Shown here piece after piece: positions 1-28,402 of a stretch of DNA of 34,319 nt. The notes under the pieces are model-generated. The model did not search any database and was not told where the DNA came from. It worked only from the letters and a program-made list of their open reading frames with translations. The position numbers were made by a program, and so were the translations under genes. The DNA comes from an uncultured Clostridia bacterium (GTDB lineage Bacteria > Bacillota > Clostridia > TANB77 > CAG-508). The DNA lies in assembly GCA_944386175.1 (NCBI GenBank), contig CALXAB010000016.1:1-34319 (forward strand), given 5' to 3'. Each line of letters begins with the position of its first letter. Position 1 is the stretch's first letter.

Positions 1-92
1 GTCCCCTAGTTGTCAAAATAGCCCGTCCCCTTTGGCAATCTCAAGGTCTGTCCCCATTATCCCGAATTTTAGGGATTGAAGCAACGTCCCCT
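1..92. repeat. GGGGAC-rich dispersed repeat at the 3' end of tatD
   Basis: Positions 50-92 match the outer right arm of the fold-back element at 5289-5331 with a single difference (C at 82). On the minus strand several GGGGAC motifs stand in series between 1 and 92, with unrelated short spacers. The repeat contains the tatD stop codon (69-71). GGGGAC-rich palindromic repeats of this look are reminiscent of REP-like sequences mobilised by RAYT (Y1-family) transposases, but no such transposase is in the window, so that link is inference. The window edge cuts off whatever lies to the left. Confidence 0.8.
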
Positions 93-4986: not shown

Positions 4987-5015
4987 AATATATCATAAAA
5001 AGTTATTTATTGCAA
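4987..5015 (-). promoter_or_regulatory. Candidate promoter for the WG-repeat gene
   Basis: On the minus strand TTGCAA (5010-5015) and TATATT (4987-4992) are separated by exactly 17 nt, and the start codon is 24 nt below the -10. It sits just outside the left end of the fold-back element (5019), so insertion of that element would have replaced everything upstream of -35. Confidence 0.4.
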
Positions 5016-5018
5016 TAG

Positions 5019-5331
5019 GGGGACGTTCCTTAAATCCCTAAAATTCGGGATAATGGGGACGGACCTTCCTCTGTTCTCAAGGTGGAACATCATCAAATAT
5101 ATGATTTTGAATGTGATTGGAATAATTTTAGAAATTCTTGATTAATTTTTTGGAAAATGTTCACGTCGAGCTTTAGCTCGGACTAAGTGAAAGGGTGCCA
5201 AAAAATTAATTTAGAATTTTTTAAATTATGTATTGAGCCGAAAAATCATATATTTGATGATGTTCCACCTTGAGAACAGAGGAAGGTCCGTCCCCATTAT
5301 CCCGAATTTTAGGGATTGAAGGAACGTCCCC
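5019..5331. repeat. Fold-back element 1 (313 bp, 90-bp inverted arms)
   Basis: The left arm (5019-5108) and right arm (5242-5331) are inverted complements over 90 positions with one mismatch (5032 against 5318). Between them lies a 133-bp core (5109-5241) that is itself an imperfect palindrome centred on the small hairpin CGAGC-TTTA-GCTCG. The whole element can therefore fold into one hairpin of about 150 paired positions. The core, in opposite orientation, is shared with the element at 26495-26702. The outer 43 nt of the right arm recur at 50-92. The right arm encodes the last seven codons and the stop of spoIIE. There is no ORF inside. It looks like a non-autonomous fold-back/MITE-like or REP-like element; a function as transcript-end structure is also possible. 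Confidence 0.93.
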
Positions 5332-7765: not shown

Positions 7766-7919
7766 CCTTACCACCTCTTTGTTTTTTATGGTCTTATTTT
7801 ACTACTTGTCCTTTGTGGTTTTTGTCTTTTTTGGTAATCTATTACTAAAAAGTTTTTTACATTTTTTTATGTTTATTTTTTATTTTTCTTATATTATTTC
7901 ATTTTGTAGTTTTTATTTT

Positions 7920-8093: not shown

Positions 8094-8137
8094 AAAAAAT
8101 TACCATTTTGGGACACGTCCCCAAAATGGTAATTTTT
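8094..8137 (-). terminator. Rho-independent terminator after surface gene D
   Basis: On the minus strand AAAAAATTACCATTTTGGGG pairs with CCCAAAATGGTAATTTTTT around an ACGTGT tip, giving a stem of about 18-20 bp that ends in a run of T. It begins at the stop codon of the upstream gene. Its 27-nt tip (8103-8129) is a divergent member of the hairpin repeat at 1998-2024 and 28354-28380. Confidence 0.88.
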
Positions 8138-11100
8138 TTATTTTAATACATATTTCTTAATGATAACTATTCCTGTTAGAAGTATGCCTAGTGAGCTTAC
8201 TGTAAGTATTATATATGCTATGTAATTTACTGTTAATCCTGTAGCTGGCACTATATTTAACCCTTCTGCTCTATCATCATCTTCTTCATAAGTTGTACTA
8301 TCTCCTGGAACATAATTACCTGGAATAGTTTCTAATCCTGCTCCCCAATTCTTTTCTACTTTTATAATCTCTGCATTATTTTCTCTCATGTCTTCATCAC
8401 CAATTGATGATATTACTCGAGTTGCACTTACCTCAATACTTGCATATCTTCCTGAAGTTAGATCATTTTGATTTAATGTTTCTGTTGTTATTACCGTATT
8501 TGTATTATTTAATGTATCTTCCACTTCATTAGATAATAATCCATCTGTTATTAAATTACTTTTTTCATTATTATCTTTAATAACCCATCTTTCATTTTCT
8601 TCTAACAACATATTATTATCTAAATAATCTATAAGCATACTAGGTGTCAATTTTGTTTCATTATTTTTATCTTCATATCCTTTTCCATACAAATAATAGT
8701 CTTTAGATTCATAATCTAGTTCTGATATATTTGTAACTTTTAATTCATAAGTAGCTTTAAGTTTTGATCCCTTGGCTAATTCATTATCCATCTCTATTTT
8801 TAATTGTGGTTCATTAGCTGATTCTTTTATATATGTTATGTATTTTGGATTATCCTCTATTGTTCCATCTTCATTTATACTGGCATCTACTAAAGCTAAA
8901 CCATTGCTTAAATTCATTTTTACACTTTTTAATCTTTTATCAAGTTTTAATATTTGTTTTGCTCTTTTAACAATACCAAAATCTATATTTTTCATATGGT
9001 TTTTGTATTCTTCTTTTTTAACAGCATATCCATTTTCAATTTTTATTAATCCATTTTCATCTTTTTCATATTGATCCATATCTGTTTCACTAGAAGTATA
9101 CTCAAAGTTTACTTTAAATATAGGTGTAGATGAAGTCATTTTTGTTATAATGCCAATATCTTCTTTAGCCTCTTCTTCACTATACGAATCAGTTATTTGT
9201 TTATGTGTTTCATAGGTAATTACTTGAGTTTGTGCATCTATTTGTTCTCTTAGTTCATAATTATCAACTGCATCTGATACTCTTACTTCTTTTCCATTTT
9301 CCCATTCAACACCTTGATAATTTTGCTTAAATTCGTCTTTATACCATTCTTCATTTGTTCCTTTAGCTTCGTATGAATCTTTATCAACTACTGTACTTTT
9401 ATAATTTTGTACTTTATAGTTTTCATCTCCCCACATAAATTCTACTGTATATCTTCCTGGTATAAATCCATCTATAAAATATTCACCATTTTCATTTGTT
9501 TTTGTCCTAGCTTCTACCCACTGTTTACTACTGTTATCATATACCTTTGCTATATTTCCATTTTCATCTTTTAATATAACTTCAACATCTTTTATTCCTG
9601 ATTCATTATCATCTAATCTTCCATTTCCTTGCCTTTCTTCTCCAGTTTTTAATGTTTCTTCTGTACTATCTTCAAAAACTTTTCCTGAAGCCATCCTATT
9701 ATCTTGTAGAACTAATTTAATTCCTGGTGCTCTATCTGTGTCATCTTCAAAAGTTGTCGTATCACTTGGCACTGCACTTTCTGGCCTTGAATCAATATCT
9801 ATTCCCGCATATATTTCTCCTTCTTTAAATGTTGAATATGATGTTATTTCTGCTATATTTTCTAAGTTTTCTCCATCATTTACTACCTTTTTTATAGCTT
9901 CATTATTTAATTCAAATTGAATATATATATATCTTTCTTGTTGTGCAGCAATCTCATAATCTAATGAAATTATTGCTTTTTGATAATTATCATCATATGC
10001 TTCTGCTTGTTGAGTTTGCATATTTATAATATTACCTTCTTGATCAATATCTGTACCATAGCCTAACATAGTATAATTATTATCAAAATAATCAACTATT
10101 GAATTAATTTTTGATGTAAGATTTGTTGACTGATTTTTCAAAGATATTTTATATGTCAATTTTGCTTTTAAATTATCATCTTCATTTGGTGCTTCATAAT
10201 TGTAATCTGATTCATATATTGGTCTTGTATATGACATGTCAGAATATTTTTCTTTGAATTTTACTCCTATCCTATAATCATTTTGATATGTATCTGTATC
10301 TTTTGCACTTTGTTCGTCTTTATTTATACTATCTAGTTTTTGTCCATATTTATAAACACTTCCTACTCCAACAAATTCTAATTTTATATTTTGTAAATCT
10401 TTCACCAATGCTACATCAGGTTGTTCTCTTTCATATAGTCCTAAATTTATATCTTCTACAACTTCTTTATTATTATCCCTAATATAATCTATTACATTTT
10501 TTCCTCCAATTTTTATTAGGTCTAAATTACCACCATATGCATTTGCTGTTGATGAAGTTATTAAATATTTATTATAAACGCCAGATATTGGATATTTAGC
10601 ACCAGTATAACCATATTTTAAATCTGTATCGTTTCCATAAATTAAGGCACTTTGATAATTTGCAGAATCATATTCTAAAGTTGCTACACTTCCATTTTTA
10701 GCTATTGCTCCTTGTTTTTCTATTTTTAAATATTTTTCATTAAATGTTGTCCTATTAGATCCTTCTTCTGCTTTTGATGCATGCAAAGTTTCTACTGCAC
10801 TTTTTACATTTGAATAACTCAATCCATTATATTCGAATTCTATATAATAATCTTTCAATTTATCTATATTTACTTTAGTAAATTTATATGTTCCATTTTT
10901 ATTTGTTTGAACACTATTAATTATTTTATTTGTTGTAGAATCTATTAAATTTACTTTTACATTCTGTACTCTCTTATCTAGTGAATTTTCATCATATATA
11001 TCATTTCTAATATATTGTTTTCCGTCTCCTCTGTCTTCCCATACAAATCCAGTAAGATCCACATATTTTCTTTTATTTTTAAGTTCTACATTTACTGTTA

Positions 11101-12190
11101 CATCTTTTTTTACCGTAACTTTTGCTTTTAAAGTATTCGAAACCTGTTCATAATATGAACTAGGATTTTTAGTCTCAATAATTTTATATTCTCCTGTCAA
11201 AAGACCTTTAATGTTAATTTCTCCATTCTTATTTGTATAATATTCTGTTGCATCTCCTTTTGATGTAACATAATTTATTTCACCAGTTTTTGAGTTTACT
11301 TGTACATATTTACCATTTTTATATTGTAAAATAAATCCTACACCCTGTAATTTTTTACCACTATCTGCATCTTTTTTTACTATTTTCAAGTTTCCTCTTT
11401 CTTCCGCTTCCATACTTGAAAATATTATTCTATCCTGACCATATTGACACCTTAAAATTATTATACGAACTTTTTTATTATCTGAGGTTCCTTCTCTTGC
11501 TTTTGCATTAGCTGCAACCCAAAAATCGTCTCCTGTAGCTGATGTATAACCGTCTTGATCAGTAGCTGGATACCAAACACTAAATTTCTCTGCACCTCTT
11601 CTGTCATCTAGTAAACTTTTAGTATTATTGTTCCAATAGTATAATACTAATATATCTGATCCGACAGTAGTCATACCACTAATTGAAAATTGTTTATTAT
11701 AATTTTTTGCAAAATATGCCATAGTTTCTAATCTATATATTGCTTTTTTAGTTGTATCATCCCCAGAAGAATAAGATAAGTCATGAATAGTTCTTCTATA
11801 TGCTCCTATTGTAGCAGTTCTATCAGGATATATATCTATAACATTCTTTACCTCAAATATATCTTGATTTCCACTTCCATTATTAGCATGCCTATTGATA
11901 CAATTCCACATATACATAGTAGTTTCGTCAACATCACCTGTAAGTGTGTTATTTGATCCTGTCCCACATTTTATTAACAAATTTTTCATATTTATTCCAA
12001 AAAATTTTTCTGGATCGTTTTGAGCCCAATTATATAAATCTGTTATAGTTTTTGGAAGAGTCTTATCTTTATTTGCTGCATCTAATTCATCTTGAGTAAT
12101 AGCTGCTGCTAAAGAAGGTTTAGCTATAATAAGCAAAAAAACAATTATCAAAAAAACTACACTAATTACAAATTTTAATAAAGTTTTCAT
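8138..12190 (-). CDS. Giant surface protein D: thioester-like head, Cna-B and SdrD-B domains, VPATG anchor
   Basis: This 1350-aa cell-surface protein begins with a signal peptide (about residues 4-30, ending SLAAA). A globular N-terminal region (about 31-260) resembles that of protein B, with MWNCINRHA aligning to its FCLQHGQA. A Cna-B/SpaA-type domain (about 266-375) has an ETKNP strand, then an SdrD-B-like domain (LTGFVWEDRGDG). Further modules follow, including a second SdrD-B (SGKVFEDSTEE). The C-terminus has VPATG (1314-1318), a hydrophobic helix and KKYVLK, an LPXTG-like sorting signal. It is a paralogue of protein B along its length. The ATG is 1 nt from the stop of gene C, and its ribosome binding site AAGGAGGT lies within the last codons of C, so translation is probably coupled. 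Adhesion is inferred, not shown. Confidence 0.92.
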   Translation of the reverse strand: MKTLLKFVISVVFLIIVFLLIIAKPSLAAAITQDELDAANKDKTLPKTITDLYNWAQNDPEKFFGINMKNLLIKCGTGSNNTLTGDVDETTMYMWNCINRHANNGSGNQDIFEVKNVIDIYPDRTATIGAYRRTIHDLSYSSGDDTTKKAIYRLETMAYFAKNYNKQFSISGMTTVGSDILVLYYWNNNTKSLLDDRRGAEKFSVWYPATDQDGYTSATGDDFWVAANAKAREGTSDNKKVRIIILRCQYGQDRIIFSSMEAEERGNLKIVKKDADSGKKLQGVGFILQYKNGKYVQVNSKTGEINYVTSKGDATEYYTNKNGEINIKGLLTGEYKIIETKNPSSYYEQVSNTLKAKVTVKKDVTVNVELKNKRKYVDLTGFVWEDRGDGKQYIRNDIYDENSLDKRVQNVKVNLIDSTTNKIINSVQTNKNGTYKFTKVNIDKLKDYYIEFEYNGLSYSNVKSAVETLHASKAEEGSNRTTFNEKYLKIEKQGAIAKNGSVATLEYDSANYQSALIYGNDTDLKYGYTGAKYPISGVYNKYLITSSTANAYGGNLDLIKIGGKNVIDYIRDNNKEVVEDINLGLYEREQPDVALVKDLQNIKLEFVGVGSVYKYGQKLDSINKDEQSAKDTDTYQNDYRIGVKFKEKYSDMSYTRPIYESDYNYEAPNEDDNLKAKLTYKISLKNQSTNLTSKINSIVDYFDNNYTMLGYGTDIDQEGNIINMQTQQAEAYDDNYQKAIISLDYEIAAQQERYIYIQFELNNEAIKKVVNDGENLENIAEITSYSTFKEGEIYAGIDIDSRPESAVPSDTTTFEDDTDRAPGIKLVLQDNRMASGKVFEDSTEETLKTGEERQGNGRLDDNESGIKDVEVILKDENGNIAKVYDNSSKQWVEARTKTNENGEYFIDGFIPGRYTVEFMWGDENYKVQNYKSTVVDKDSYEAKGTNEEWYKDEFKQNYQGVEWENGKEVRVSDAVDNYELREQIDAQTQVITYETHKQITDSYSEEEAKEDIGIITKMTSSTPIFKVNFEYTSSETDMDQYEKDENGLIKIENGYAVKKEEYKNHMKNIDFGIVKRAKQILKLDKRLKSVKMNLSNGLALVDASINEDGTIEDNPKYITYIKESANEPQLKIEMDNELAKGSKLKATYELKVTNISELDYESKDYYLYGKGYEDKNNETKLTPSMLIDYLDNNMLLEENERWVIKDNNEKSNLITDGLLSNEVEDTLNNTNTVITTETLNQNDLTSGRYASIEVSATRVISSIGDEDMRENNAEIIKVEKNWGAGLETIPGNYVPGDSTTYEEDDDRAEGLNIVPATGLTVNYIAYIILTVSSLGILLTGIVIIKKYVLK

Positions 12191-12191
12191 T

Positions 12192-15100
12192 TTAAACCTC
12201 CTTCTTCTTTTTTCTACATATTATAATCGCTATAGTCAATAATATAACAAATATTACTGTTCCTATTGCTAAAACTACTTTACCTGTACTTAATGAGATT
12301 ATTACTTCTGCTTGTCCCATATCATCTTCTCCATCAACATTATTCCCTGGAATAGAATCTATATCATTTATGTTTAAATTATTACTAGCATTTTGTATCT
12401 CTGCCTTATTGATTACATTTCCTAAATTATCATTATTCATTGTTTTTGTTAAAACTAAATTTATTGTTTGAGTCTCACCTGGATTTATTTGTGTATTAGC
12501 TAATGAATTATTGTGTAATATAGCATCTGATGATAAATACCATCCATTATTATTATTTTGATTAAATTCTAAATCCTTTGGCATATAGTCTATAATTTCA
12601 TTTACTTGACCTGGTATTTCGCCTTCATTAGTTACTTTAATCATATATTCTATTGTAACTACAGTTCCTGCCAATTCTTTAGCTTTTAATTCTATTTTAG
12701 CTAAATTTGCATTATTGTATTCTGTTACAGTTTTCGAATTTCTATTTTGAATTGTTATTCTACTTACTGTTTTATTTAATGATAAATCAAATATACTCTT
12801 TTCATAAAATCCTGCATCTATATTTTCTCTATCAGTATTATTTAATAATATCTCATTTGTAATAGCTATTTCTTGTTGTACACTATTAATACTTACATTT
12901 TTAGAAATAACATCTGAGTTTAAAGATGAATCAGCATTTTCAACTTGATATTGAGTTACAGTATATTTACTTGTATCATATTTAAATCCTACCATATATG
13001 AACCTGGATCTAAATTTTCAAATTTATACTCTCCTGCATTATTAGTTATTGTTTGTATCATATTTCCATTTCCATCTAGAATTACTTGACCTGTACTTGC
13101 ATCAAAAAGAATAACTTCAATTCCACTAATTGCTTCACTCTCATCTCTTATTCCGTTTTTATTACTATCAAGCCATGCCTTTCCACTTATAGCTCTTTCA
13201 GAATCTGTTTGAATATATCCGCCTTCTATCTTATAACTTACAACATTTGATTCTACATATCTATCTCCACTTATTACTGATATAGTATTTTCTAGTTTTC
13301 CTAATTGACTAGTATTTTCACCAACTACTGTATCAATTATTAAATTAACTTCTTCATTTGCTTTTAATGTATATTTTGCACCTAAATATGTTTCTCCATC
13401 TTCACTGTCTTTTTGATAATCTGCATTAGCAACTTTTTCACCATTTTGTTCAAAATATGCATCTTTTACATCTAATATTGATAATATATTATCTTCTACC
13501 AATAATTCTGCATCTATATTAGAATTATTCTTTATATTGGCTATAAATTGTAAGTTATTTCCTTCCTTAATATATTCATCTTTTATACTTCCTTGTTGTA
13601 TTATTTCTATATTTGGAATGATATTACTATCTGATTTTGTAATTATATTAGAATAATATTTATTTTCGTCTAATTCAGCATTACATGAAAAATCATATAT
13701 TTTCATTTGTCCATTAGTATCAACTTTATTTATATATAAATCTAAGAAAATATCTATAGTTTCGCCTATATCTAAATCTTTTATTTTTATTTTTATATTA
13801 TCATTTGAAACTTCCTCGTAAGTGTATTTTTCTGTATCTTCTCTATATTCTTCATTTAAACTTACTCCATCTGATAAAGGTATATTTAAAATTATATCGT
13901 TTAATTTTCTTTCAGAAGTATTACTTACCTTATACACAAATGAATTTTCATACCCTATGCTAAATGGTACTTCTTCATTTTTTGCATATAAAGTTATTAA
14001 TTTTAAGTCCGCTTCTTTAATTTTATTTCTCATTATTTCTTTTGAAAAATTAACCTCATCAGATTTAACATCTAACATACCTATTGTTACTTCATCTTTT
14101 GTTTTTATTTGATTTATTGTAAATTCATATTCATATTCAACAGTTTCACCATTTTTTAGTAAATCTTTTTCATATGTTTTCTTTAATATATCTGTATCTT
14201 CTTTATAATTAGTCACCATGATAGGTAATCCAGTAACTGCATCTTTAGCTTCTTCTTCTTTCATATTAAAAAATGTTACATTATTATTTCCATCTATATC
14301 TTTTTGTGTTCCTGTCAATGAAAATTTATTTAAATCTTTACCTGTGTTATTTGTAATAATTATTTTATGTTTTACTGTTTGTCCTTCAAAAATCTCATCA
14401 CTATTTTCTATTTCTTCTCCTGCTGACAAAGTTTGCACTTTTAAATCTAATCCATCTATGCTTTCATTTACGCTTAAAAGCATATTGCTATTCTCTTTTC
14501 CTTTTAATTTAAATACTGAATGGTCTTCAGCTTTTTGTTCTTTATATTCATAGGCTAATTTAGTTATTTGATAATAAGTATCTTCTTTTTGTAGATTTTC
14601 TGGTATTTCTATTTTATAATTAATACTTATAACTTCACCAGGTTTTAACTCTGGCAATATTATTTTAAACATTTTAACATCTGAAATATTATCTACTTTA
14701 TCATACCATTTATCACTATTTACTTCTGTATTCTCAGTTGCATATAAAATACTAGCATCTTCATAATTAGTTTCTATTTGATTTAATAATTGTGCATTTA
14801 TTGAAGATTTAAATTCACTATTTTCATTTGTAGTATCAATTTTACCAACTATTGATAAATTCTTTATATTTTCACTATAATTATTTATTACTGATGTACT
14901 AACATCAACTTCTCTTTTCGCTGAATTTGTATCTATTTCACCTGTAATAGTTTTTTGAAAAAGTGTTTCTATTTGAGAATTTTCACCACTATATCCAGAC
15001 ATTTTGCTATACATTAATACTCCATATTTAGAATTAATATTTACCTCTGCACTTGTCAAATTTTCTTCATTATTTCTATTCTCATTTGTATATTTTAATA

Positions 15101-17006
15101 CGACAGCCGATTTTTTTGTTGGTGTCAATTTATTAATAGTTATATTTGCATTTATAATAATTTGTATACCTTGATTTACATCATTTTTAAATTCTTTTTG
15201 CTCTCCACTTAATTTTATTTCTATTTTCTTTTCGTTTTTATTATATTGTACACTTTCTACGTTCATTTCATCAGCATACATTTTTTGAATAGATTTTACA
15301 TCTATTTTTTCTACTTCTTCTGGAAGTGCTATTTCTATATATGGATTTTTATATAAATCATACTTATTACTATTTGACATTAGAGTTGCAATTATTTGAA
15401 CATTTTCATTTTCTTGTAATGTAGAAAAATTTGTATTATTCAATTCAATTTTTGCTTCTGAAACTGTATCTAACAAATACATATACGAGGTATATGTATT
15501 TGAATTTACTTTAGTAACACTTTTTAATTTATTTACACTTTTAAAAAATTCTTTTGAATATTGAGTTTCAGATTTTATCGCCTTTATTAATACAATTTGC
15601 ATATTACCTTGAGTTACAGGTTTGCTTAATATAATTTTAATATTTTCTATATTTTCTATTTGTAAAGCTATATCACCATTTTCATCTTCTTCTACATTTT
15701 TATCTATATTTAAAATAGTATTATTTTGATCATCTAATACAGAAATATTCCCCTCTTGTCCTAGTATTCCTAGCATTTCTGATTTATTTAATTTTATCAT
15801 TTTATGATATACACTATTATTAGTTGAAAATTCATCATTATTTAAATCCATAAAATTATTAACATCTGTATCTATTTCTATATTTGATATATTATTTATA
15901 TCTGAGATCTCTAAATTTACATTCTCTTTATACTCTGTTTCATTTCCAATATTAGCATATAAATATCCTTTATATTTATTATTTGTCATAGTTTTTTCTA
16001 CTGTTATTATTTCTCCTAATTGATTTGCTTGCACATCTTTAGTATCTTGTTTTTGTATTAGTTCTTTAGTATATACTTCCAATTCTAATTTAGTATCCAA
16101 GTAGAATGTATTGCTTTCTAAAGTATTATCATAGTTATATATTATTTTATACTCGTCTTTTCCAGTTCCCCATGATATATTACTTTCTGAATTCACATTA
16201 ATATTTTTGTGTATAACTATTTCTCCATTAGTTTCATCATATGTATAATCATTCTCATTCATTTTCTTTCCATTATTTAATATTCCTACTATTTGCATTC
16301 CATTTTCTTTGTTAGGAACTTTTACAGTTAAATTCTCTTGTTTTATTGGTAATACATTATTTACAACTTCTACATCTATTTTTTGTTGCAATAATATTTT
16401 TCCATCACCCATTACCAAATATTTATCTATGTCTTGAGACAAATTAGTTTCTACATCTTCACTCCATAATGCCGCTATTTTTAATTCTCCTTTTATTTGT
16501 TGTACTTGTTCATCATTTTGATAATCTCCTTCTAGTGTTATTAAGGTTTCTCTATCAAAATAATCTGCTTCTATTTCATCCTTTTTTTCAAATTTTATTG
16601 GTATCTCTAATTCTACTTGATTTCCATATATTATTTGATTTAAATATATTTCATTTTCTCCTACTGATTTCACATATTTACTGTCTATCTTATCTTTTTC
16701 AATAGTAAAATTAGGATTATTTATTACTATTTTTCCATTATTTAACGCTCCTGCATTATTTATATTTAAATTTATATATAAGTTATCTCCATTTAAAATA
16801 GACATAGTTTTACTATGTGCATTATTCTCTCCTTCTTTAAAATAGACATTAAATTCAATATTTGTATTGCCTATTTTGTATTCTTGACTTTCTAAATTTT
16901 CATATATGGCAATAGATAATCCTCTACCTATTTCAAAAAAGTTAATCCCTATCATTACCAACATTAAAACAATACTAACTATTGTCTTTAATATCCTCTG
17001 CTTCAT
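12192..17006 (-). CDS. Giant surface stalk protein C with DUF11-like and SdrD-B domains
   Basis: This 1604-aa protein is probably exported and wall- or membrane-attached. An N-terminal hydrophobic segment (about 8-25) is followed by a long run of beta-rich modules starting with NTNIEFNVYFKEG. DUF11-like repeats with ITNNTGKDL and IKNNSNIDAEL motifs follow, then an SdrD-B domain at about 1272-1370 (SGKAWLDSNKNGIRDESE). The last DUF11-like module ends in IPGNNVDGEDDMGQAE, SLSTGK, a membrane helix (about 1577-1598) and CRKKKKEV. The sorting-like site lacks the proline of LPXTG. It is a paralogue of protein A with the same domain order. The ATG follows GAGGAGG. It is first in the C-D pair, behind a 268-bp gap holding the terminator of B and a conserved leader block. 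Ligand unknown. Confidence 0.92.
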   Translation of the reverse strand: MKQRILKTIVSIVLMLVMIGINFFEIGRGLSIAIYENLESQEYKIGNTNIEFNVYFKEGENNAHSKTMSILNGDNLYINLNINNAGALNNGKIVINNPNFTIEKDKIDSKYVKSVGENEIYLNQIIYGNQVELEIPIKFEKKDEIEADYFDRETLITLEGDYQNDEQVQQIKGELKIAALWSEDVETNLSQDIDKYLVMGDGKILLQQKIDVEVVNNVLPIKQENLTVKVPNKENGMQIVGILNNGKKMNENDYTYDETNGEIVIHKNINVNSESNISWGTGKDEYKIIYNYDNTLESNTFYLDTKLELEVYTKELIQKQDTKDVQANQLGEIITVEKTMTNNKYKGYLYANIGNETEYKENVNLEISDINNISNIEIDTDVNNFMDLNNDEFSTNNSVYHKMIKLNKSEMLGILGQEGNISVLDDQNNTILNIDKNVEEDENGDIALQIENIENIKIILSKPVTQGNMQIVLIKAIKSETQYSKEFFKSVNKLKSVTKVNSNTYTSYMYLLDTVSEAKIELNNTNFSTLQENENVQIIATLMSNSNKYDLYKNPYIEIALPEEVEKIDVKSIQKMYADEMNVESVQYNKNEKKIEIKLSGEQKEFKNDVNQGIQIIINANITINKLTPTKKSAVVLKYTNENRNNEENLTSAEVNINSKYGVLMYSKMSGYSGENSQIETLFQKTITGEIDTNSAKREVDVSTSVINNYSENIKNLSIVGKIDTTNENSEFKSSINAQLLNQIETNYEDASILYATENTEVNSDKWYDKVDNISDVKMFKIILPELKPGEVISINYKIEIPENLQKEDTYYQITKLAYEYKEQKAEDHSVFKLKGKENSNMLLSVNESIDGLDLKVQTLSAGEEIENSDEIFEGQTVKHKIIITNNTGKDLNKFSLTGTQKDIDGNNNVTFFNMKEEEAKDAVTGLPIMVTNYKEDTDILKKTYEKDLLKNGETVEYEYEFTINQIKTKDEVTIGMLDVKSDEVNFSKEIMRNKIKEADLKLITLYAKNEEVPFSIGYENSFVYKVSNTSERKLNDIILNIPLSDGVSLNEEYREDTEKYTYEEVSNDNIKIKIKDLDIGETIDIFLDLYINKVDTNGQMKIYDFSCNAELDENKYYSNIITKSDSNIIPNIEIIQQGSIKDEYIKEGNNLQFIANIKNNSNIDAELLVEDNILSILDVKDAYFEQNGEKVANADYQKDSEDGETYLGAKYTLKANEEVNLIIDTVVGENTSQLGKLENTISVISGDRYVESNVVSYKIEGGYIQTDSERAISGKAWLDSNKNGIRDESEAISGIEVILFDASTGQVILDGNGNMIQTITNNAGEYKFENLDPGSYMVGFKYDTSKYTVTQYQVENADSSLNSDVISKNVSINSVQQEIAITNEILLNNTDRENIDAGFYEKSIFDLSLNKTVSRITIQNRNSKTVTEYNNANLAKIELKAKELAGTVVTIEYMIKVTNEGEIPGQVNEIIDYMPKDLEFNQNNNNGWYLSSDAILHNNSLANTQINPGETQTINLVLTKTMNNDNLGNVINKAEIQNASNNLNINDIDSIPGNNVDGEDDMGQAEVIISLSTGKVVLAIGTVIFVILLTIAIIICRKKKKEV

Positions 17007-17274: not shown

Positions 17275-20200
17275 TTATTTATTTAAAGCTTTTTTCTTTA
17301 TGATTACTATTCCCACAACTACAATAGTCAATGCTGTTGCAACTATAGCAATTATTATAATATGATTTCTATTTTGTCCTGTTGGTGGAGTTACTGTTAC
17401 TGATTGAGCTAAGTCATCATCCAATTCGTCGTTTTCTCCTGGTAAATAATTACCTGGTGTTGATGATATTATGTCTCCGCCTCCAGTTTTGTCTATTTTA
17501 ATTATTTCAGTATAGTTATTTAAATCTATTTCATCTGCTACAGATAATACTTTAGAAACTTTTAAGTTTGCATATGCACTTTCTGTAGGTTTTAATTTTT
17601 GTTCTGCTAGTTTTTCTGTATATAATATTATACTTCCTTTTACAGTTTCATTATTATATACTTCTGTAACTAATAATTGTGATTGTTCCATTTCTTCTTG
17701 TGTTTTTATTTTCCATCCATCTTCTTCATTCTTAGAAGCTTCAAATTCCCAATCTTTATCTAAATAGTCTATAATAGCTGTTGGTGTAATTGTTACTAGT
17801 TTATTTGGATCTTTATCTGTTCCAAATTTATAGTATTCTTCACTTATATAGTCTAATTCACTATTATTTTTTGCTGTAATTTTATATTCCACTTCTAATG
17901 TAGAACCTTGTATTAATTCTTTGTCCATTTCTACTTTTACAGTTCCATTAGGTGGATTCATTCCCTCAAGAGGTCCTTGTGCCGTAACATATGGAGATCC
18001 TTTAGTTATATTTCCATTATCATCTAATTCTACATCCACAAGTACTTGACCATTTGGTAATGTTACTTTTAATTTATTTACTCTCTTGATTAATTCTACT
18101 TCTTGTCTTGGTCTTTCTACAATACCAAAGTCTATATTTTTAATTTCATATTTAAGTTCATCATCTGGTGAAGTCGTTACATTCATCTCTGTATCTTCTA
18201 CTGTTATTCCCATTGTTGGTGTTGTAGAATCCATAGTTGTTATTGTTGGTGTTGTAGAATGAGTTATTGTTTTTAGTTCATTGTCAATTGCCTCTCTTTG
18301 AGCATAATCATCTATTGCATCTGTATATCTTGGACCATTTTCTTCTGATTTATACCATGTGTCATTTTCTATATTTTTATTATATCTGTCTTTATCATAT
18401 ATTGTTCCTTTATAGTTTTGTACTGTATATGTTTCGTCTCCCCATGTATATGTCAATGTATAATCACCTGGTATAAATCCTTCTATTAAGAAGTCTCCAT
18501 TTTCATCTGTAGTTGCATCATATACTTTACCTGTTCCTGTATTTTCTTTTAATGTAATTTTAACTCCTGATATTCCAGGTTCTCCTTCATTATATTGACC
18601 ATCGCCTTTTCTTTCTTCTCCAACTTTTAATTCATTTGTAGTTTCATCTAAGAATACTTTACCTTGCATTTCCCTTGCATCTGCTACTGCTAGCCTTAAT
18701 GCTGGAGCTCTATCTGTGTCATCTTCAAATGTTTTTGTATTTTCTGGATCTGCATTTCCCGGGTTAGAATCTACATCTATACCTGCATATACATTTCCTT
18801 CTTTATCAAATACTGAATATGAGTTTATTTCTACTACATTTTCTAGTAAATTGTTTTGTCCCTCAGGAGTTCCTAGTTCGTCTATTATAGCTTTAACTGC
18901 TTCTCTTGATAGCTCAAATTGTATATATATTGCATTTTGTTTTTGTGCTTCTATCTTAGAATTTGTTTCTATTATTATTTTTGTGTATTTTGAATTGTTA
19001 TATGTTGTGTCTTTAGTATAGTTTAGGTTTCCTGTAATTTTTCCATTTTCTATTCCTGTACCTACTCCATTTTCTGCTATTTCATATCTACTATCAAAAT
19101 AATCTACTATTGAATTTACCTGTGATACAAGGTTTGTAGCTTGATTTTTTAACATTATTTTATATGTTAATTTTACTTTTAATTCTCGACTTGTATCTTG
19201 GTCTTCAAATGTGTAATCTGATTCATATATTGGTCTTGTATATGTCATATCAGAATATTTGTTTCCGAATTTAACACCTACATTAAATAAATCTTTTTCT
19301 TCATTTTGTGCTGTAATTGTTTTTGTTCCGTAATTATATGTATGTCCATACCCATTTATTGAAAGACTTACATTATCTAAATCTTTTACTAATGTTAAAT
19401 CTGGTTGTTCTCTTTCATACAATCCCAAGTTTATATTTTTAATTTCTTCTTGTCCAACTACATAATGGTCTAAAATATTATATCCTGTCTCTGATGTTAG
19501 AGCTGTAATTGGAAATTTACCTTTATCTTTTAGTGTCAATACTTCAGCATTTTCATCTTCAAATGTTACATTTTCGAATCTTGTTTTATATTCATTTTCG
19601 TCTTTCGTATATGTTAAATCATGTACTTTGTTTCCATTTGAATCTTTTGTTATACCTGTATTTTCTCCTGTACCTTCAATAATACTAAAGTTATTATTAA
19701 ATGTTCTTCTTGTATTCTCATTTTCTGCTGCTTTTGAACCATTATCTTTATCTATATATGATATAACATTTGTAAATGTTAATCCATCATATTCGAATTC
19801 AATGTAATAATTTCCTAAGTCTTCTACTAATACATCTACAAATTGATATGCTCCTCTATTTGCTGTAGTTGTTTCTTTTATCACGTTTCCTGATTTATCT
19901 TTCAATCTTACTGGGATTCCATTTAATAGTTTATCTCCATAGTCAAATTCTCCATCATTATATAAATCATTTCTTATTGATTGTTTTTCTGATTGTTTAT
20001 CTAACCATACATATCCTGAAAGTTTTATGTATTTTTGTTTATTTGGTATTTTTAGTTCTGAAGTTTTATCAACTACAACTGTACCTTCTACTCCTTCTGA
20101 TACTATTTCATATCCATAATTAGGATTTTTCGTTTCATATGCTACATATGTACCTACTAATAAATTTTCTACTTTGAATTGTCCATTTTTATCTGTTATA

Positions 20201-21300
20201 AATTCTGTAGCTTTACTCTTATCAACATAAGATATTGTTTTATCTGAATTTTGTCTTACATATTTACCTGTATCTTTATTTTGTATTATAAATCCAACTC
20301 CTGATAATTTTATTTCTGAATTATTTACTATTTTTATTACTTTTAAATCTCCTGATAAAGGAATTTTATAATTGAATTTTTCTTTAATAGTATCATTTTT
20401 TGTATATGGTTCTCTTCCAATTAAGTTTTGGAAACTCGCTCCACTTAAACTTTCTAAAAACCATAATTTTGCACATTTCACCTCATACTTACAAGTTCCT
20501 GATATACTAGTAATTTCTCTTACTCCTTTATCTGTAGGTATTAACACATAAAATGGTTTTCCGGATTTTATATCACTTACCTTAGTTTCCACTAAATCTT
20601 TACCTTGATATCTATTATACAATACATTACTTATTGCTTTTCCATCCTGATCATATACAGAAATATTATTTAATGTTCCTGTAAATGTCCATTTAAATGG
20701 TCCTACTTTTATATATGATTTTCCATTTCGAGTAACTGAATTAGCTTTTATCTTATTTTTATCTGTAATATCTTTAAAACTTTGCTCTTCTTTAAGATTT
20801 GTTGCATAATTTTTAGCTTCAGTTATAAGATAATCATATTGTGATTGCCCTGCATTTCCTGTCATAAATGATTTATCTATTCCATGCTTCCTTCCTACAT
20901 TTTGTCCCCATTCTGGTATATAACTCCAAATTGCATTTGCTACAGGACCATATTGCTTATCTCTTCCACTTGCTTCTGTTCCATTATCTTTTGATAATAT
21001 ATATGCAAGTACTCCATTCTCCCATGCTGTAACTTCGGTTTTATTTGCTTCATTAGTAGATTTTAAACCTTCTATCGTTACTATTGAATCTACTCTATAT
21101 GTTACTTTCCACCCTGGCAATGCTTGACCATGTTGCAAACAAAATAAATTACTATCATATATATAATCATAATATGATTTGTACAATATATCTCCGACTT
21201 TATAATTAGTATATGATGCTGCGCTTGATATATTAGCTATACATAGCATTGCAAATATTAAACTTATTCCTAATATAATTTTGTTTTTAATGTTCTTCAT
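17275..21300 (-). CDS. Giant surface protein B: thioester-like head, Cna-B and SdrD-B domains, TPPTG anchor
   Basis: This 1341-aa protein has a signal peptide (about residues 7-28, ANISSAAS). An N-terminal domain resembles thioester/TQXA domains: DSNLFCLQHGQALPGW supplies a candidate thioester cysteine (C54), and YGPVANAIWSY (117-127) aligns with the usual TQxAIW. The thioester glutamine is Ala here (A121), so the bond is doubtful. A Cna-B/SpaA-type domain (about 316-418, with ETKNP), an SdrD-B domain (LSGYVWLDKQSEKQ), further modules and another SdrD-B (QGKVFLDETTNELK) follow. The C-terminus is TPPTGQN (1304-1310), a membrane helix and KKKALNK, an LPXTG-like signal. It is 24 bp after gene A with an AAAGGAGGT site, so co-transcribed. 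Host or surface binding is inferred. Confidence 0.92.
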   Translation of the reverse strand: MKNIKNKIILGISLIFAMLCIANISSAASYTNYKVGDILYKSYYDYIYDSNLFCLQHGQALPGWKVTYRVDSIVTIEGLKSTNEANKTEVTAWENGVLAYILSKDNGTEASGRDKQYGPVANAIWSYIPEWGQNVGRKHGIDKSFMTGNAGQSQYDYLITEAKNYATNLKEEQSFKDITDKNKIKANSVTRNGKSYIKVGPFKWTFTGTLNNISVYDQDGKAISNVLYNRYQGKDLVETKVSDIKSGKPFYVLIPTDKGVREITSISGTCKYEVKCAKLWFLESLSGASFQNLIGREPYTKNDTIKEKFNYKIPLSGDLKVIKIVNNSEIKLSGVGFIIQNKDTGKYVRQNSDKTISYVDKSKATEFITDKNGQFKVENLLVGTYVAYETKNPNYGYEIVSEGVEGTVVVDKTSELKIPNKQKYIKLSGYVWLDKQSEKQSIRNDLYNDGEFDYGDKLLNGIPVRLKDKSGNVIKETTTANRGAYQFVDVLVEDLGNYYIEFEYDGLTFTNVISYIDKDNGSKAAENENTRRTFNNNFSIIEGTGENTGITKDSNGNKVHDLTYTKDENEYKTRFENVTFEDENAEVLTLKDKGKFPITALTSETGYNILDHYVVGQEEIKNINLGLYEREQPDLTLVKDLDNVSLSINGYGHTYNYGTKTITAQNEEKDLFNVGVKFGNKYSDMTYTRPIYESDYTFEDQDTSRELKVKLTYKIMLKNQATNLVSQVNSIVDYFDSRYEIAENGVGTGIENGKITGNLNYTKDTTYNNSKYTKIIIETNSKIEAQKQNAIYIQFELSREAVKAIIDELGTPEGQNNLLENVVEINSYSVFDKEGNVYAGIDVDSNPGNADPENTKTFEDDTDRAPALRLAVADAREMQGKVFLDETTNELKVGEERKGDGQYNEGEPGISGVKITLKENTGTGKVYDATTDENGDFLIEGFIPGDYTLTYTWGDETYTVQNYKGTIYDKDRYNKNIENDTWYKSEENGPRYTDAIDDYAQREAIDNELKTITHSTTPTITTMDSTTPTMGITVEDTEMNVTTSPDDELKYEIKNIDFGIVERPRQEVELIKRVNKLKVTLPNGQVLVDVELDDNGNITKGSPYVTAQGPLEGMNPPNGTVKVEMDKELIQGSTLEVEYKITAKNNSELDYISEEYYKFGTDKDPNKLVTITPTAIIDYLDKDWEFEASKNEEDGWKIKTQEEMEQSQLLVTEVYNNETVKGSIILYTEKLAEQKLKPTESAYANLKVSKVLSVADEIDLNNYTEIIKIDKTGGGDIISSTPGNYLPGENDELDDDLAQSVTVTPPTGQNRNHIIIIAIVATALTIVVVGIVIIKKKALNK

Positions 21301-21324: not shown

Positions 21325-24300
21325 TTATATTTCATCTATATTTATATTATTCTTTTTTCTAACAATTACAAGTACTACAATTGCTAATATTACAATTACT
21401 ATAATAGCTATTCCTGCATAAACAATTCCACCTGTTCTAATACTTAAAATTACATCTGCATAATCCATGTCATTTTCACCTTGCACTTTGTTTGCTGGTG
21501 TTGAATTTATATCTGCTAATCCTAATTCGTTATATGCTTCTGCTATCTCCGCTGTATTATTTACCAGTCCTGTATTGTTTTCGTTCATTGTTTTTGTTAG
21601 TGTTAGAGTTAATGTTTTTGTTTCCCCTGCTGCTATCTTATCATTTGCTATACTTGAATTATATAATACTCCACCTTGTTGATACCAATCTTTATTTAAT
21701 TCTGAACTAAATTGAAGGTCATTTGGCATATAATCTGCTACTTTTCTAGCATATCCGTCTATCTCTCCAGCATTTGTAACATTTATTTTATATTCTATTA
21801 TAACTGTTGTTCCTGCTAATTGTTTTGCATCTATTTCAACTTTTGCTAATTTTTCATTATTAAATTCTCTTACTGTTGTTCCTGCTGAATTTTGTAATAT
21901 AATTTTACTTACAAATTTTTCTAGTTTTAAATCAAATGTTTTTAGTTCTATTAATCCTATATTAATATCTGAAATATTATTGTCTTCAATTGATATTATA
22001 TCTGTACCTGTTACTTTTTGAGTATTATTTTCTATATTTAAGTCTGTTAACATTGCATCTGAATTTTTGCTTTCATCTACACCTTGTACTTTATATTTAG
22101 TAACTGTGTATTGTGTTGTATTATATTCAAAAATAACTATATATTGTCCATTTACTATATTATCTAATACATACATACCTTGACTATTTGTTGTTGTTTC
22201 TAATATGTTTCCTGATGTATCTTTTACTAAATTATTAGTTTTTGTATTTAACAATTTAACTTTTACATTATCTAGAGTTTTTTCATTTTCATCTTTTATA
22301 CCATTTGCATTTTCATCATGCCAAGCTAAACCACTTATCATTTTTGTTCCTTCTGCAATATCTCCATTTCCTGAGTTATTATCTCCATTATCTGTATTGT
22401 CACCATCATTAACTTTTGTAGGCTCGATTATATGGTTTATAGTATCAGTCTCTGCCATTTTTTGTCCTGCAAATTCTATAACAGCTTTGTTAGAAATAGT
22501 TTCTGCTTCTTCTCTATCATCTGCTTCATTTACCATCGTTTCTATTTTTATTTCACAACTACCTTTTTCCATTATGTTTAATCTTATTTCTACTTGATTT
22601 GTTTCTATACCTTCAACTTTTTGTCCATCAACTGTTATATTAGTTATTGTTAATTCCTCTGGGATAGTATCTTTTAAAATTACATTTTCTGCTCTACTTT
22701 CTGAATTGTTATTTACTACTATTGTATATTCTATTATATCTCCTGCTTTTACGTATTTACTATCTGTATTCGATACCATTGTCATTGAAATATCATAGTT
22801 ACTTATTTCGTCTGTCCACACATTAGAAGTATATTCTTTAGTACTATCTTTAGCTATTGTATAAAATTTAGATTTATTATTATCAGATGTATTTACAAGT
22901 GTACTGTATGACAATACTTTTACTTCCCCAACTTCTAAAGATCCGATATCTACTTCTTTATCATATTGTATTACTTCAGATTGCACATCTTTGTTAATAT
23001 CTTCTTTACTACTTTCGTTATCTGGATTTACAATTTCTTCACTAGCTTCAGTAAATATTTCATTTCCTGATACTTCTTGACTTTGCATTCCCGTATATAA
23101 AGTTAATTTTTCTATTTCTAAATTTTCTGAAATATTTGTTTCAACTTTTACATTATCTTGTTTAGTATCTGAAATATTTTCTATTATAGCAAAATATTCC
23201 ACAGCTCCATTTCCATATATATTAATATTTCTATCTGTAACTTTCTTTACACTTACTCTTAGATTTGCATTTTCTGTTGTTGTTTTTATTTCATTAGATT
23301 CATTTACTGCCTCACCATATTTAGTTTCTATAGTATTTGTAAGTGTAGTGTTTTCATATGTTTTTGAATTTACTCTTACTTCATATTCTACAATTGCTTT
23401 TTCTCCTACTGCAATTTTTTCTATTGTTTTTTCGAATTTATCTGTTTCTACTTCTTTATAATATGATGAACCTGTATATTCATAATTTTCTACTGGTTCT
23501 ACTAATGTTGTACCTTCTGGAACTTGCCCTGTTACTACTACATTTTCTACTTCTTCTGAACCTGTATTAGAAATCTCTACATGGTATTTTATAACTTCAC
23601 CATTCTTTACTTTTGTATCTGAAGTTATATTTTTATCTCCAACTGTTGCACTTAATGCTGTTTCTATTTTTGGTCCTACTCCTGTATCCATTTCTATATC
23701 TGTTGATTCAATTGTATTTGCTACATTTGTTACACTATTTGTATAGCTTACATTATATCCTTCTGATGCTTTTTGATTATATTCAAGATTTTCTGGTATT
23801 TCTATATCATATGTACCTATAATACTTTCTCCAGCTCCTAGGCTATCATATTGTACCAAATATTTTTTACTGTTTTTTGTTGCATTTTGTTTCCACCCGT
23901 TTTCAGAATTTTGTAAATCATTTGTTGCATTTTCATTTTCTGTATAATAAATTGTTGCATTTTCCATATTTATTGTACTTGCAAGTTTTACACCTAAATT
24001 ATTTGTTTCACTATCAGTAGGGAAGGTTCCCAATACTTTCATATTATTTATTGGTTCTTGATTGTTATTTATTATCTCTAATTGTACTTCTAGTCTTTTT
24101 GCTTCTTGTCCTTTTGCCATTGAAACTGTTTGCTTTTCTTCTTGTCCTACTGTTTCTATTCCTAAATTTTTGATACTATTAATTGCTGTTACATCTGTAG
24201 GTGCTACTATTTGTATATCTTTTGAACTTGTTCCTACTTCTTGACCATTTATATATTCCATTGTTATTGGTTTTATTGATGTTGGTGATTTTTTGTTTAC

Positions 24301-26193
24301 TTTTATATTAGCGTTTATTATTATTGTTGCACCTTCAATTGATTGTTCTTTATATTGTGTTTGTTTTCCTGCTAATGTTATTGTTAAAATTCTTCCATTT
24401 ACGGCATAATTTTGTATCTTTAATTCATTTTCATAAACTAAATCTATACTATTTATTTCTATTCCTTCAATCTCTTCAGGTAATGTTATATTTATTGTTG
24501 GATTTTCATATAAATTGTATTCTTCACTGTTTGTATTTAATATAGCTCTCATTTCAACGTTATTTTCTACTACTGTTGATAATGTATCTTTATTAACTTC
24601 TAATCTTGCAGTTGTTTTTGCTTCATTTAAAACTATTTCTGATTTAGTTTCTGTTTGCATTCCTGTTACATATTTTTTTGTATCTGTTACATTTATATTA
24701 TAGCTTGCTATTGCTGTTGTTTGTATTTTATTTATATTTTTAACTATATTTATATCATTTTGTTTTATCGTTTTTTGGTTATTAAAATTAATTGTACCTT
24801 CTTTTATAGGTGCTGATGTTCTTATTTCTATATTTCTAGCTTCTATATTTGTATATTCTATATTAATGTCTCCGTTTTCGTCAGGTACTGAAGTTGAATC
24901 TGCTCTTCCTATTACTTGTCCATCTTGATTTATTATTTCTATAAATCCATTTGCTCCAAAAATTTCATCAAAATTTTGCTTACTAAAAGATGTTTTTGTG
25001 TATATAATATTTGCATCTAATAATGTATCTTCATTTGCCACAAAATTATTTTGTTCTTTTATACTTATATATTCTGCTGTATTGGCTAAATTCACTTCTA
25101 ATTTTGTTGTAGAATTATAACTTCTATCTATTCCTGAATATAGTTTTCCTTTAAATATTTGTTGTTCACTATTTACTGTTTCTACTGCTATTGTTGTATC
25201 CTTTTCTTCATTATTTAATTCTATTTTTGTATCATTTGCTTGTATTTCTTTATCATTATATAAAGTTATTTTTTCTTGTGCTGTGATTTCTATATTATCT
25301 AAATTTGCATCTTTTTCATATATATATGTTAATATAATATTTTCATTTCCAGATTTTTTCCAAGTAATTTTATTTTCTTGTGTTAATTCATTTGAAAATT
25401 GAAATTCTACATATCCATTTTCATTTTTATATCCATATGATGTCATATTGTTTAAATTAACAACTTGTACAACTTCTGGTTGTTGTCCACTTATTTCTGG
25501 AATATTAATTTTTGAATTTATGTTTTTTATTGGATAATTATTTTCTTTTAATCCCAAATTTAATGAAAATTGAATTATTCTTTTTTCTTCTCCATTTATT
25601 TTCATTACTTTATTTGTTATTATATCTATACTATTTTCTACATTATCTGGTGTATTTGCTTCTATTAATTTTAAGTTTACATTTCTTGTTGAGTCTATAG
25701 TTATATTTTTTTCTGTACTGTCTTTATATTCTCCAGTTAATGTTACTTCACTATTCATGTCTAATAAACCTGTATCTATTTGGTTTTCTGTTACAGGCTT
25801 TATTTTTATATCAATTTCTGCATTTGTTCCTGAATTTAATTGATTTAAATATATTGTATTTCCTTCGATTCTATTTACATATTGATTTTCTGTACCAACA
25901 ATTGTAAAGTTATTATTTGCAATTTCTACTTTTCCATTAAAGTATCCATCTTTTTTAACATTTACATTTAGGTATAGTATTTGTTCTTGTTCTTCTGATG
26001 TAATTTCCAAGGAATTTGTGTTTTTTCCTTCTTTATCTTTAAAATATGTATTAAATTCTATGTTAGCATGATTTGTAGCTAATATATCTTTGGCATAACT
26101 TATAAAACTTGAACCAACAAAAATAAAATTGGCCATTGTCATTGTCAATATTAACACCATAATAATACTAACTTTTAGAAGTTTGTTTTTCAT
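21325..26193 (-). CDS. Giant surface stalk protein A with DUF11-like and SdrD-B domains
   Basis: This is a 1622-aa exported protein. I start at the ATG 26191-26193 (MKNKLLKVSIIM) because the longer reading MFFKGGIK is the AAAGGAGGAAT ribosome binding site itself. A hydrophobic signal segment (about 5-30) is followed by beta-rich modules beginning HANIEFNTYFKDKEG. DUF11-type repeats follow at about 855-985 and 1135-1255 (KYVKAGDIIEYTIVVNNNSE), then an Asn/Asp/Gly linker and an SdrD-B domain at about 1285-1380 (SGLAWHDENANGIKDENEK). The final module ends TPANKVQGENDMDYAD, SIRTGG, a helix and RKKNNINIDEI. Like C, it lacks the proline of a sortase motif. It is a paralogue of C and first gene of the island, behind a good promoter and a ~210-nt leader. 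Confidence 0.92.
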   Translation of the reverse strand: MKNKLLKVSIIMVLILTMTMANFIFVGSSFISYAKDILATNHANIEFNTYFKDKEGKNTNSLEITSEEQEQILYLNVNVKKDGYFNGKVEIANNNFTIVGTENQYVNRIEGNTIYLNQLNSGTNAEIDIKIKPVTENQIDTGLLDMNSEVTLTGEYKDSTEKNITIDSTRNVNLKLIEANTPDNVENSIDIITNKVMKINGEEKRIIQFSLNLGLKENNYPIKNINSKINIPEISGQQPEVVQVVNLNNMTSYGYKNENGYVEFQFSNELTQENKITWKKSGNENIILTYIYEKDANLDNIEITAQEKITLYNDKEIQANDTKIELNNEEKDTTIAVETVNSEQQIFKGKLYSGIDRSYNSTTKLEVNLANTAEYISIKEQNNFVANEDTLLDANIIYTKTSFSKQNFDEIFGANGFIEIINQDGQVIGRADSTSVPDENGDINIEYTNIEARNIEIRTSAPIKEGTINFNNQKTIKQNDINIVKNINKIQTTAIASYNINVTDTKKYVTGMQTETKSEIVLNEAKTTARLEVNKDTLSTVVENNVEMRAILNTNSEEYNLYENPTINITLPEEIEGIEINSIDLVYENELKIQNYAVNGRILTITLAGKQTQYKEQSIEGATIIINANIKVNKKSPTSIKPITMEYINGQEVGTSSKDIQIVAPTDVTAINSIKNLGIETVGQEEKQTVSMAKGQEAKRLEVQLEIINNNQEPINNMKVLGTFPTDSETNNLGVKLASTINMENATIYYTENENATNDLQNSENGWKQNATKNSKKYLVQYDSLGAGESIIGTYDIEIPENLEYNQKASEGYNVSYTNSVTNVANTIESTDIEMDTGVGPKIETALSATVGDKNITSDTKVKNGEVIKYHVEISNTGSEEVENVVVTGQVPEGTTLVEPVENYEYTGSSYYKEVETDKFEKTIEKIAVGEKAIVEYEVRVNSKTYENTTLTNTIETKYGEAVNESNEIKTTTENANLRVSVKKVTDRNINIYGNGAVEYFAIIENISDTKQDNVKVETNISENLEIEKLTLYTGMQSQEVSGNEIFTEASEEIVNPDNESSKEDINKDVQSEVIQYDKEVDIGSLEVGEVKVLSYSTLVNTSDNNKSKFYTIAKDSTKEYTSNVWTDEISNYDISMTMVSNTDSKYVKAGDIIEYTIVVNNNSESRAENVILKDTIPEELTITNITVDGQKVEGIETNQVEIRLNIMEKGSCEIKIETMVNEADDREEAETISNKAVIEFAGQKMAETDTINHIIEPTKVNDGDNTDNGDNNSGNGDIAEGTKMISGLAWHDENANGIKDENEKTLDNVKVKLLNTKTNNLVKDTSGNILETTTNSQGMYVLDNIVNGQYIVIFEYNTTQYTVTKYKVQGVDESKNSDAMLTDLNIENNTQKVTGTDIISIEDNNISDINIGLIELKTFDLKLEKFVSKIILQNSAGTTVREFNNEKLAKVEIDAKQLAGTTVIIEYKINVTNAGEIDGYARKVADYMPNDLQFSSELNKDWYQQGGVLYNSSIANDKIAAGETKTLTLTLTKTMNENNTGLVNNTAEIAEAYNELGLADINSTPANKVQGENDMDYADVILSIRTGGIVYAGIAIIVIVILAIVVLVIVRKKNNINIDEI

Positions 26194-26276
26194 TTTTATT
26201 CCTCCTTTAAAAAACACTTAAAATTAATATTTCCTTTATATAATATAAATTTTTTAGTAAAAAATCAATCATTAAT

Positions 26277-26441: not shown

Positions 26442-26494
26442 TGGTTTTTTACAAATTAACCATTTATGTTAAATTTTTATTGTTGCGATCCACT

Positions 26495-26702
26495 CTATAT
26501 AGGGCATAATATATCAATAAATATAGTATTTTTCGGTTCAATACATAATTTAAGAAATTCTAAATTAATTTTTTGGTCCCCTTTCACTTAGTCCTCGCTT
26601 CGCTCGACGTGAACATTACCCAAAAAATTAATAAAGAATTTCTAAAATTATTCCTATCACATTCAAAATACTATATTTATTGATATATTATGCCCTATAT
26701 AG
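26495..26702. repeat. Fold-back element 2 (208 bp, 38-bp perfect inverted arms)
   Basis: The arms 26495-26532 and 26665-26702 are perfect inverted complements over 38 bp. The 132-bp core (26533-26664) is an imperfect palindrome centred on CTCGCTTCGCTCG. It matches the core of element 1 in reverse orientation, at more than 90% by eye outside the central loop. The outer arm sequence (CTATATAGGGCATAATATAT) is unlike that of element 1, yet complementary within this copy. The element occupies the middle of the 563-bp divergent gap between surface gene A and the plus-strand pair. It contains no ORF. Confidence 0.93.
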
Positions 26703-26789
26703 CATGAAACCGTAACAAAAAATATTATACAGCATATTATATTACATAGTTTTAAAAATTTTGAATATATATTTTTAGAGGTGATATTT

Positions 26790-28330: not shown

Positions 28331-28402
28331 TAGGGAATTAAGACAGTCTTTTTCCAATTTTGGCCGCGTCCCCAAATTGGAAAAAGTGTTCTCAATTCCC
28401 TA
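28331..28402 (-). repeat. Long hairpin between pbp2 and minC carrying the 27-nt repeat tip
   Basis: TAGGGAATT (28331-28339) pairs with AATTCCCTA (28394-28402); the stem continues with imperfections to TTTTTCCAATTTTGG against CCCAAATTGGAAAAA, with a CCGCG tip. The base of the stem contains the pbp2 stop codon (28400-28402). The tip 28354-28380 differs by one base from that at 1998-2024. No T-run follows the stem on the minus strand, so termination here may be weak and the structure may instead attenuate or process between pbp2 and minC. Confidence 0.8.

Follow-up and report, generated by a model that had tools for sequence, protein, structure and literature searches.

Hairpin repeats of a Clostridia genus on two mobile carriers, with arms probably kept matched by arm-to-arm DNA copying

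Covarying base pairs are usually taken as a sign of functional RNA. REPINs are hairpin-forming doublets of REP sequences, and in the available excerpt of their description paired changes in them are read as selection for the hairpin (PMC3116915). CGTC-tagged REPs have stems of 8–9 bp and loops of 4–5, and the five phyla listed for them in the excerpted text do not include Firmicutes (PMC3733652). For inverted repeats, arm homogenisation together with spacer inversion is given as the signature of template switching (PMC8604942, excerpt), and paired change with loop inversion, which is very rare, as the strongest possible support for that process (PMC8794818, excerpt). Paired changes in REPINs are thus already in print, and so is the combination of arm homogenisation and spacer inversion. 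The family of non-coding hairpin repeats described here, its two mobile carriers and the events seen in place are new. The family is genus-wide in uncultured gut Clostridia, it links a target-duplicating MITE with REP doublets through a common hairpin core, and its arms are probably kept matched by copying, at the DNA level, from one arm to the other.

The window (the whole stretch of DNA analysed, 34,319 nucleotides) is contig 16 of a 1.77-Mb assembly of an uncultured Clostridia bacterium, with 70 contigs and a completeness of 76%. Element 1 is a palindrome at 5019–5331. Its left arm (5019–5108, forward strand) begins with a REP-like unit (5019–5067) and continues into variable and inner stretches; the conserved core of 133 nt follows (5109–5241, reverse strand), and the right arm (5242–5331, reverse strand) runs through inner and variable stretches to a second REP-like unit (5283–5331). 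These arms are 90 nt long with 1 mismatch. Element 2 extends over 26482–26716 between decayed GTTAC-like ends that were placed by eye, and consists of a left arm of 38 nt (26495–26532, forward), a core of 132 nt (26533–26664, forward) and a right arm (26665–26702, reverse), the arms matching at 38/38 positions. The initial annotation had claimed that the elements share a core of about 132 bp in inverted orientation, that their inner arms are alignable yet changed, and that the two arms of each copy match almost perfectly. All of this was borne out, the opposed cores giving inverted matches of 89% and 90% identity. Folding of 5010–5340 (element 1) gave −199.5 kcal/mol (z −28.41), equalled by 0/100 shuffles, and folding of 26460–26740 (element 2) gave −94 kcal/mol (z −14.35), equalled by 0/200. 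A further REP-like unit of the element 1 type lies near the contig end (43–93, reverse strand, 96% match).

Elements 1 and 2 are members of one repeat family. Collecting genomic copies, as the initial annotation had proposed, yielded at least 41 full copies in the source assembly (the union of two core searches with at least 40 places each), so further copies exist. Core matches at E ≤ 0.001 were obtained in 26 of the 55 genomes searched, its own included; 13 of the 26 reach 1e-8 or better, all in the same genus, and the weakest matches are short and may be due to chance. In a collection of named genomes the core pattern was found in at least 98 stretches, with source titles of uncultured Clostridia, Clostridium, Clostridiales or Eubacteriales assemblies and one Sebaldella. 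Searches of phage and plasmid collections for the core found nothing, and the titles and abstracts met in searches of open-licence papers contained no such family in Clostridia, which is weak evidence of absence. At six loci, Rfam at E ≤ 1 returned just sub-threshold microRNA and plastid models, plus a tRNA in the flank. The best of these loose matches, two of a microRNA precursor model to the L101 palindrome, scored 110.7 and 109.5 bits where the cut-off is 230, and were rejected.

Sorting by eye divided the copies of the source assembly, some with one end decayed, into 27 of type A, like element 2, and 14 of type B, with the REP-type ends of element 1. Outer ends are common within each type, and the stretch between end and core is variable, yet self-matched in each copy. 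The earlier claim that the outer arms are unrelated therefore holds between elements 1 and 2 and fails for the family. The annotation had also considered that most copies might share their outer arms, as in a normal terminal-inverted-repeat family; this is half the case, since the ends are common per type and the middle arms vary in pairs. In part, then, these are ordinary MITE-like or REP-doublet elements, though of variable arm sequence.

Type A resembles a MITE. It is short, has no long open frame, and carries inverted ends (GTTACAATTCAC) that were recognisable in 38 copies from several genomes, element 2 not being among them. In these copies the direct match between the flanks was 0.599 at 8 nt compared with 0.383 in mixed copies (n=38, with the orthologues L093/L126 and L097/L135 included and some ends, including those of L004, L007, L008 and L014, misplaced by the script). 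For the remaining lengths between 3 and 13 it stayed within about 0.08 of the control, and 7 or 8 of the 8 flank positions matched in 9/38 copies. The match at 8 nt indicates that type A makes a transposon-type 8-bp target duplication. The relative G057 retains the uninterrupted target of L019, and no target duplication was visible by eye in the flanks of element 2. Unlike a MITE with identical arms in all copies, type A has arms, inside its 15-nt ends, that are self-matched in each copy and vary from one copy to the next. No autonomous partner carrying these ends was recognised among the solitary end matches or end pairs listed. Type-A ends do enclose other contents, in six elements of 158–159 bp in G009 and three of 77–79 bp in G020; these lose pairing after about 14–17 nt, so matched arms do not go with type-A ends as such.

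Type B consists of two inverted REP units forming a hairpin (14 copies by eye, and the fold of element 1), and no target duplication was seen by eye. Like the REPINs of the excerpted description, it is an inverted REP doublet around a hairpin spacer that is less conserved than the ends, in a genome that also has Y1 transposase genes; it differs from them in that the spacer carries a separate core of 132–133 nt, also present in the target-duplicating type A, and in its unit of about 48 nt, the GI spacing in that paper being 71 bp (PMC3116915). Set beside the GTAG- and CGTC-tagged REPs by description, it shares with them, as far as the excerpt goes, short palindromic units that often form inverted dimers, and the type-B tag contains GACG, the complement of CGTC (PMC3733652). 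Allowing at most 2 mismatches, the assembly contains the tag 129 times, often in inverted pairs around other centres. Among 14 REP-pair stretches that were fetched, the L171 palindrome has arms of 188 nt with 2 mismatches, and that of L172, which has no family core, arms of 175 nt with 0 mismatches. L173 and L174 are coreless REP palindromes with a common 45-nt centre in opposite orientations.

Four matches to the Y1 transposase model PF01797 lie above the cut-off in the genome. That in L034 has a single type-B tag upstream, that in L031 has tags on one side, and that in L032 is flanked by inverted copies of a REP other than the type-B one. The L032 arrangement spans 709–1960, and its REP, with TGCCAAAGGGGACGGG, also occurs near window position 20–40.

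At the element 1 site in G001 the REP doublet and the flanks are the same and the interior is different and short. L064 and L127 have a common site, REP ends and core, and the stretch between differs in both arms. REP doublets therefore change their interior. The G057 contig ends inside element 1, and there another REP type adjoins the REP. In the same genome the palindrome of L309 includes an additional outer pair of REPs, absent from L071.

The Watson-Crick match of the arms persists while the arm sequence drifts. At those of 109 core places with arms of at least 25 nt, 5883/6067 pairs are Watson-Crick, 49 (0.8%) G-U, 30 A-C and 105 other, with L013 repeating L003 and L034 repeating L022 in this tally. 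Loci from the named genome collection, an overlapping set in which 94/112 places have arms of at least 25 nt, gave 4113/4324 Watson-Crick pairs, 39 G-U, 33 A-C and 139 other. G-U and A-C are scarce in the arms and have no steady lean to one strand. Comparison of 61 nearest-neighbour pairs, which share copies and two of which are orthologous, gave 228 two-arm, 87 one-arm and 42 complex changes. Of the 228 two-arm changes 125 are transversions, and because these cannot pass through G-U we count them for copying. Palindromy extending beyond the type-A ends or the REP into the flank (about 21 nt in L130, about 10 nt in L081) was rejected as proof of flank copying, as palindromic targets can mimic short cases.

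The initial annotation had asked for one-arm and two-arm changes to be compared at orthologous loci. Such loci were drawn from the core copies among the matches listed and identified by flanking sequence on both sides. Sixteen orthologous pairs had alignable arms, amounting to 737 columns, of which 690 were the same, 20 changed on two arms, 23 changed on one arm and 4 were complex. A null of independent mutation at the observed density gave a mean of 0.22 two-arm columns and a maximum of 4 in 20000 runs. The two-arm columns comprise 13 transitions, 6 transversions and one 1-base deletion; when L017/L285 is removed, in which the G057 arms resemble another subfamily, 15 two-arm and 22 one-arm changes remain in 684 columns. 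At least one two-arm change was present in 7/16 pairs and none in 9/16, and L093/L126 had 7 one-arm changes. Not counted were L019/L291, since this is another insertion; L096/L139, seven G000-G001 pairs with arms that could not be aligned, and more distant pairs; and L220/L236, a pair from the ungapped arm comparison alone, in which the core is inverted. As the ungapped comparison overstates two-arm changes, just flank identities and orientations were taken from it.

The core is also flipped at fixed loci. It is inverted relative to the flanks in 4/16 pairs (L283/L284, L317/L323, L092/L136 and element 2/L337); the sequences are metagenome assemblies, and assembly choices could account for part of these inversions. 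Two-arm changes occur together with core inversion in element 2/L337 and L092/L136. In G055/G056, the closest species pair, the arms hardly differ in six pairs, and the cores are flipped in 2/6. The G057 copy of element 2 (L337) is at the same site, with 2 two-arm and 0 one-arm changes over 38 columns; its core is flipped and, lacking the tip, shorter by about 83 nt. The element 2 site in G001 and G008 is without the core. Single-base two-arm changes in otherwise identical arms with the same flanks were found in element 2/L337, L035/L082 and L092/L136. Many changes thus lie on both arms of a resident copy, and both arm homogenisation in place and spacer inversion are found, as in template-switched repeats. 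Those studies, as excerpted, deal with RNA genes and with coding repeats of yeast whose spacers are short, whereas here the spacer is about 130 nt and the family multi-copy (PMC8604942, PMC8794818).

The core differs from the arms in what is kept. In 32 aligned representatives several internal-loop motifs are retained, the asymmetric loops survive and the stems are variable. Stem pairs of 92 distinct cores are 1871 Watson-Crick, 3 G-U, 25 A-C and 29 other, and at least two Watson-Crick types occur at 17/21 stem pairs. Counted as distinct pair-and-genome events, there are 18 A-C against 3 G-U, with copies that are not independent. An A-C pair in the core is G-T or G-U on the other strand, and the core may therefore be selected as a folded reverse strand, either RNA or single-stranded DNA. 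At G000-G001 loci the core was nearer to a paralogue than to the orthologue in 6/6 compared, and in G001-G008 pairs it was nearer to the orthologue in 2/5 (L093/L126 and L097/L135); cores nearer to paralogues point to exchange or renewal of cores within genomes. Divergent hairpin cores with similar loop motifs and other apical stems were seen in L147 (1243–1459) and in the centre of L184, so the counted copies do not cover the whole core class.

The initial annotation had left the choice between selected paired changes and a copying process. We consider copying the better supported for the arms, on the grounds of two-arm changes at the same locus, the shortage of G-U, the many transversions and the inversion of the core between orthologues; pairing selection probably acts on the core. 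One arm would serve as template for the other, either on folding of the palindrome or on a template switch at the replication fork, and the same templated copying would also invert the core. The polymerase step, its frequency and the role of the core are what we infer here, and RecA-dependent conversion between arms would look identical in these data. Copying would not be constant, given the nine pairs with no two-arm change and the persistent one-arm changes, and its effects in the core must be either absent or purged, as the asymmetric loops survive. Selection would preserve the core in the form of a folded single strand, probably to the benefit of the element's own propagation, and REP doublets would swap their entire interiors. 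That the core acts in cis as a hairpin that actively promotes copying of the sequence on one side to the opposite side, making a self-templating palindrome, is quite unlikely; if so, it could reside in carriers unrelated to each other and acquire new arms without leaving its locus, but coreless palindromes with matched arms speak against this reading.

The main rival is selection on a structured RNA or single-stranded DNA hairpin, with one-arm mutations lost or compensated by a second mutation. It too predicts two-arm changes, the REPIN authors read paired changes in this way in the excerpted text (PMC3116915), and the kept loop motifs, the alternative Watson-Crick types and the excess of A-C over G-U events in the core agree with it. 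However, the scarcity of G-U and A-C in both arm tallies, with no steady strand lean, and the share of transversions among two-arm changes are against it in the arms; it does not predict core inversion, and Rfam found 0 families at gathering score in the window. We therefore set RNA selection aside as the main cause of arm matching, on the strength of the G-U shortage and the transversions, as unlikely though not disproved. Replacement of whole copies, by a new insertion or by ectopic recombination that brings in a paralogue with matched arms, would need no change in place. It would account for the G000-G001 loci, with cores nearer to paralogues and seven pairs of unalignable arms, and for L064/L127, which differ just in the stretch between REP ends and core, and L019/L291 is a true second insertion nearby. 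Against it are the single-base two-arm changes in identical surroundings, listed above, and the L093/L126 and L097/L135 cores that are nearer to the orthologue, and as a general explanation it is very unlikely. A switch in which a site-specific recombinase flips the core would produce the differing orientations in 4/16 pairs, but the arm sequence next to the core varies from copy to copy, which leaves no constant recombinase site in the arms; this explanation is the least probable. With arm-to-arm copying as the preferred explanation, the paired changes of this large repeat family most likely have DNA copying as their main source; they are seen in place between close species and are coupled to a flipped hairpin centre. 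If this is true, the family offers a good test bed for the rate of palindrome rewriting by template switching, and a warning for covariation-based discovery of RNA in repeats.

Several other features were observed in the window and the loci. Frames that enter a type-B REP-like unit at their 3′ end share the tail RGRSFNP (once RGRCFNP) followed by a stop, as in 69–866 and 5309–7774 of the window, both on the minus strand, and in L022, L128, L142 and others; nine are distinct, and some are perhaps not genes. A short palindromic repeat with centres like GACGCGTCC or GACACGTCC occurs at 1996–2027, 8101–8132 and 28352–28383, and a related repeat seems to make up the G001 interior of the element 1 doublet (L348). 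Four very large minus-strand ORFs of 1341–1630 aa (8138–12190, 12192–17006, 17275–21300 and 21325–26217) look like candidate surface proteins, and stretches of them are repeated about 9 kb apart.
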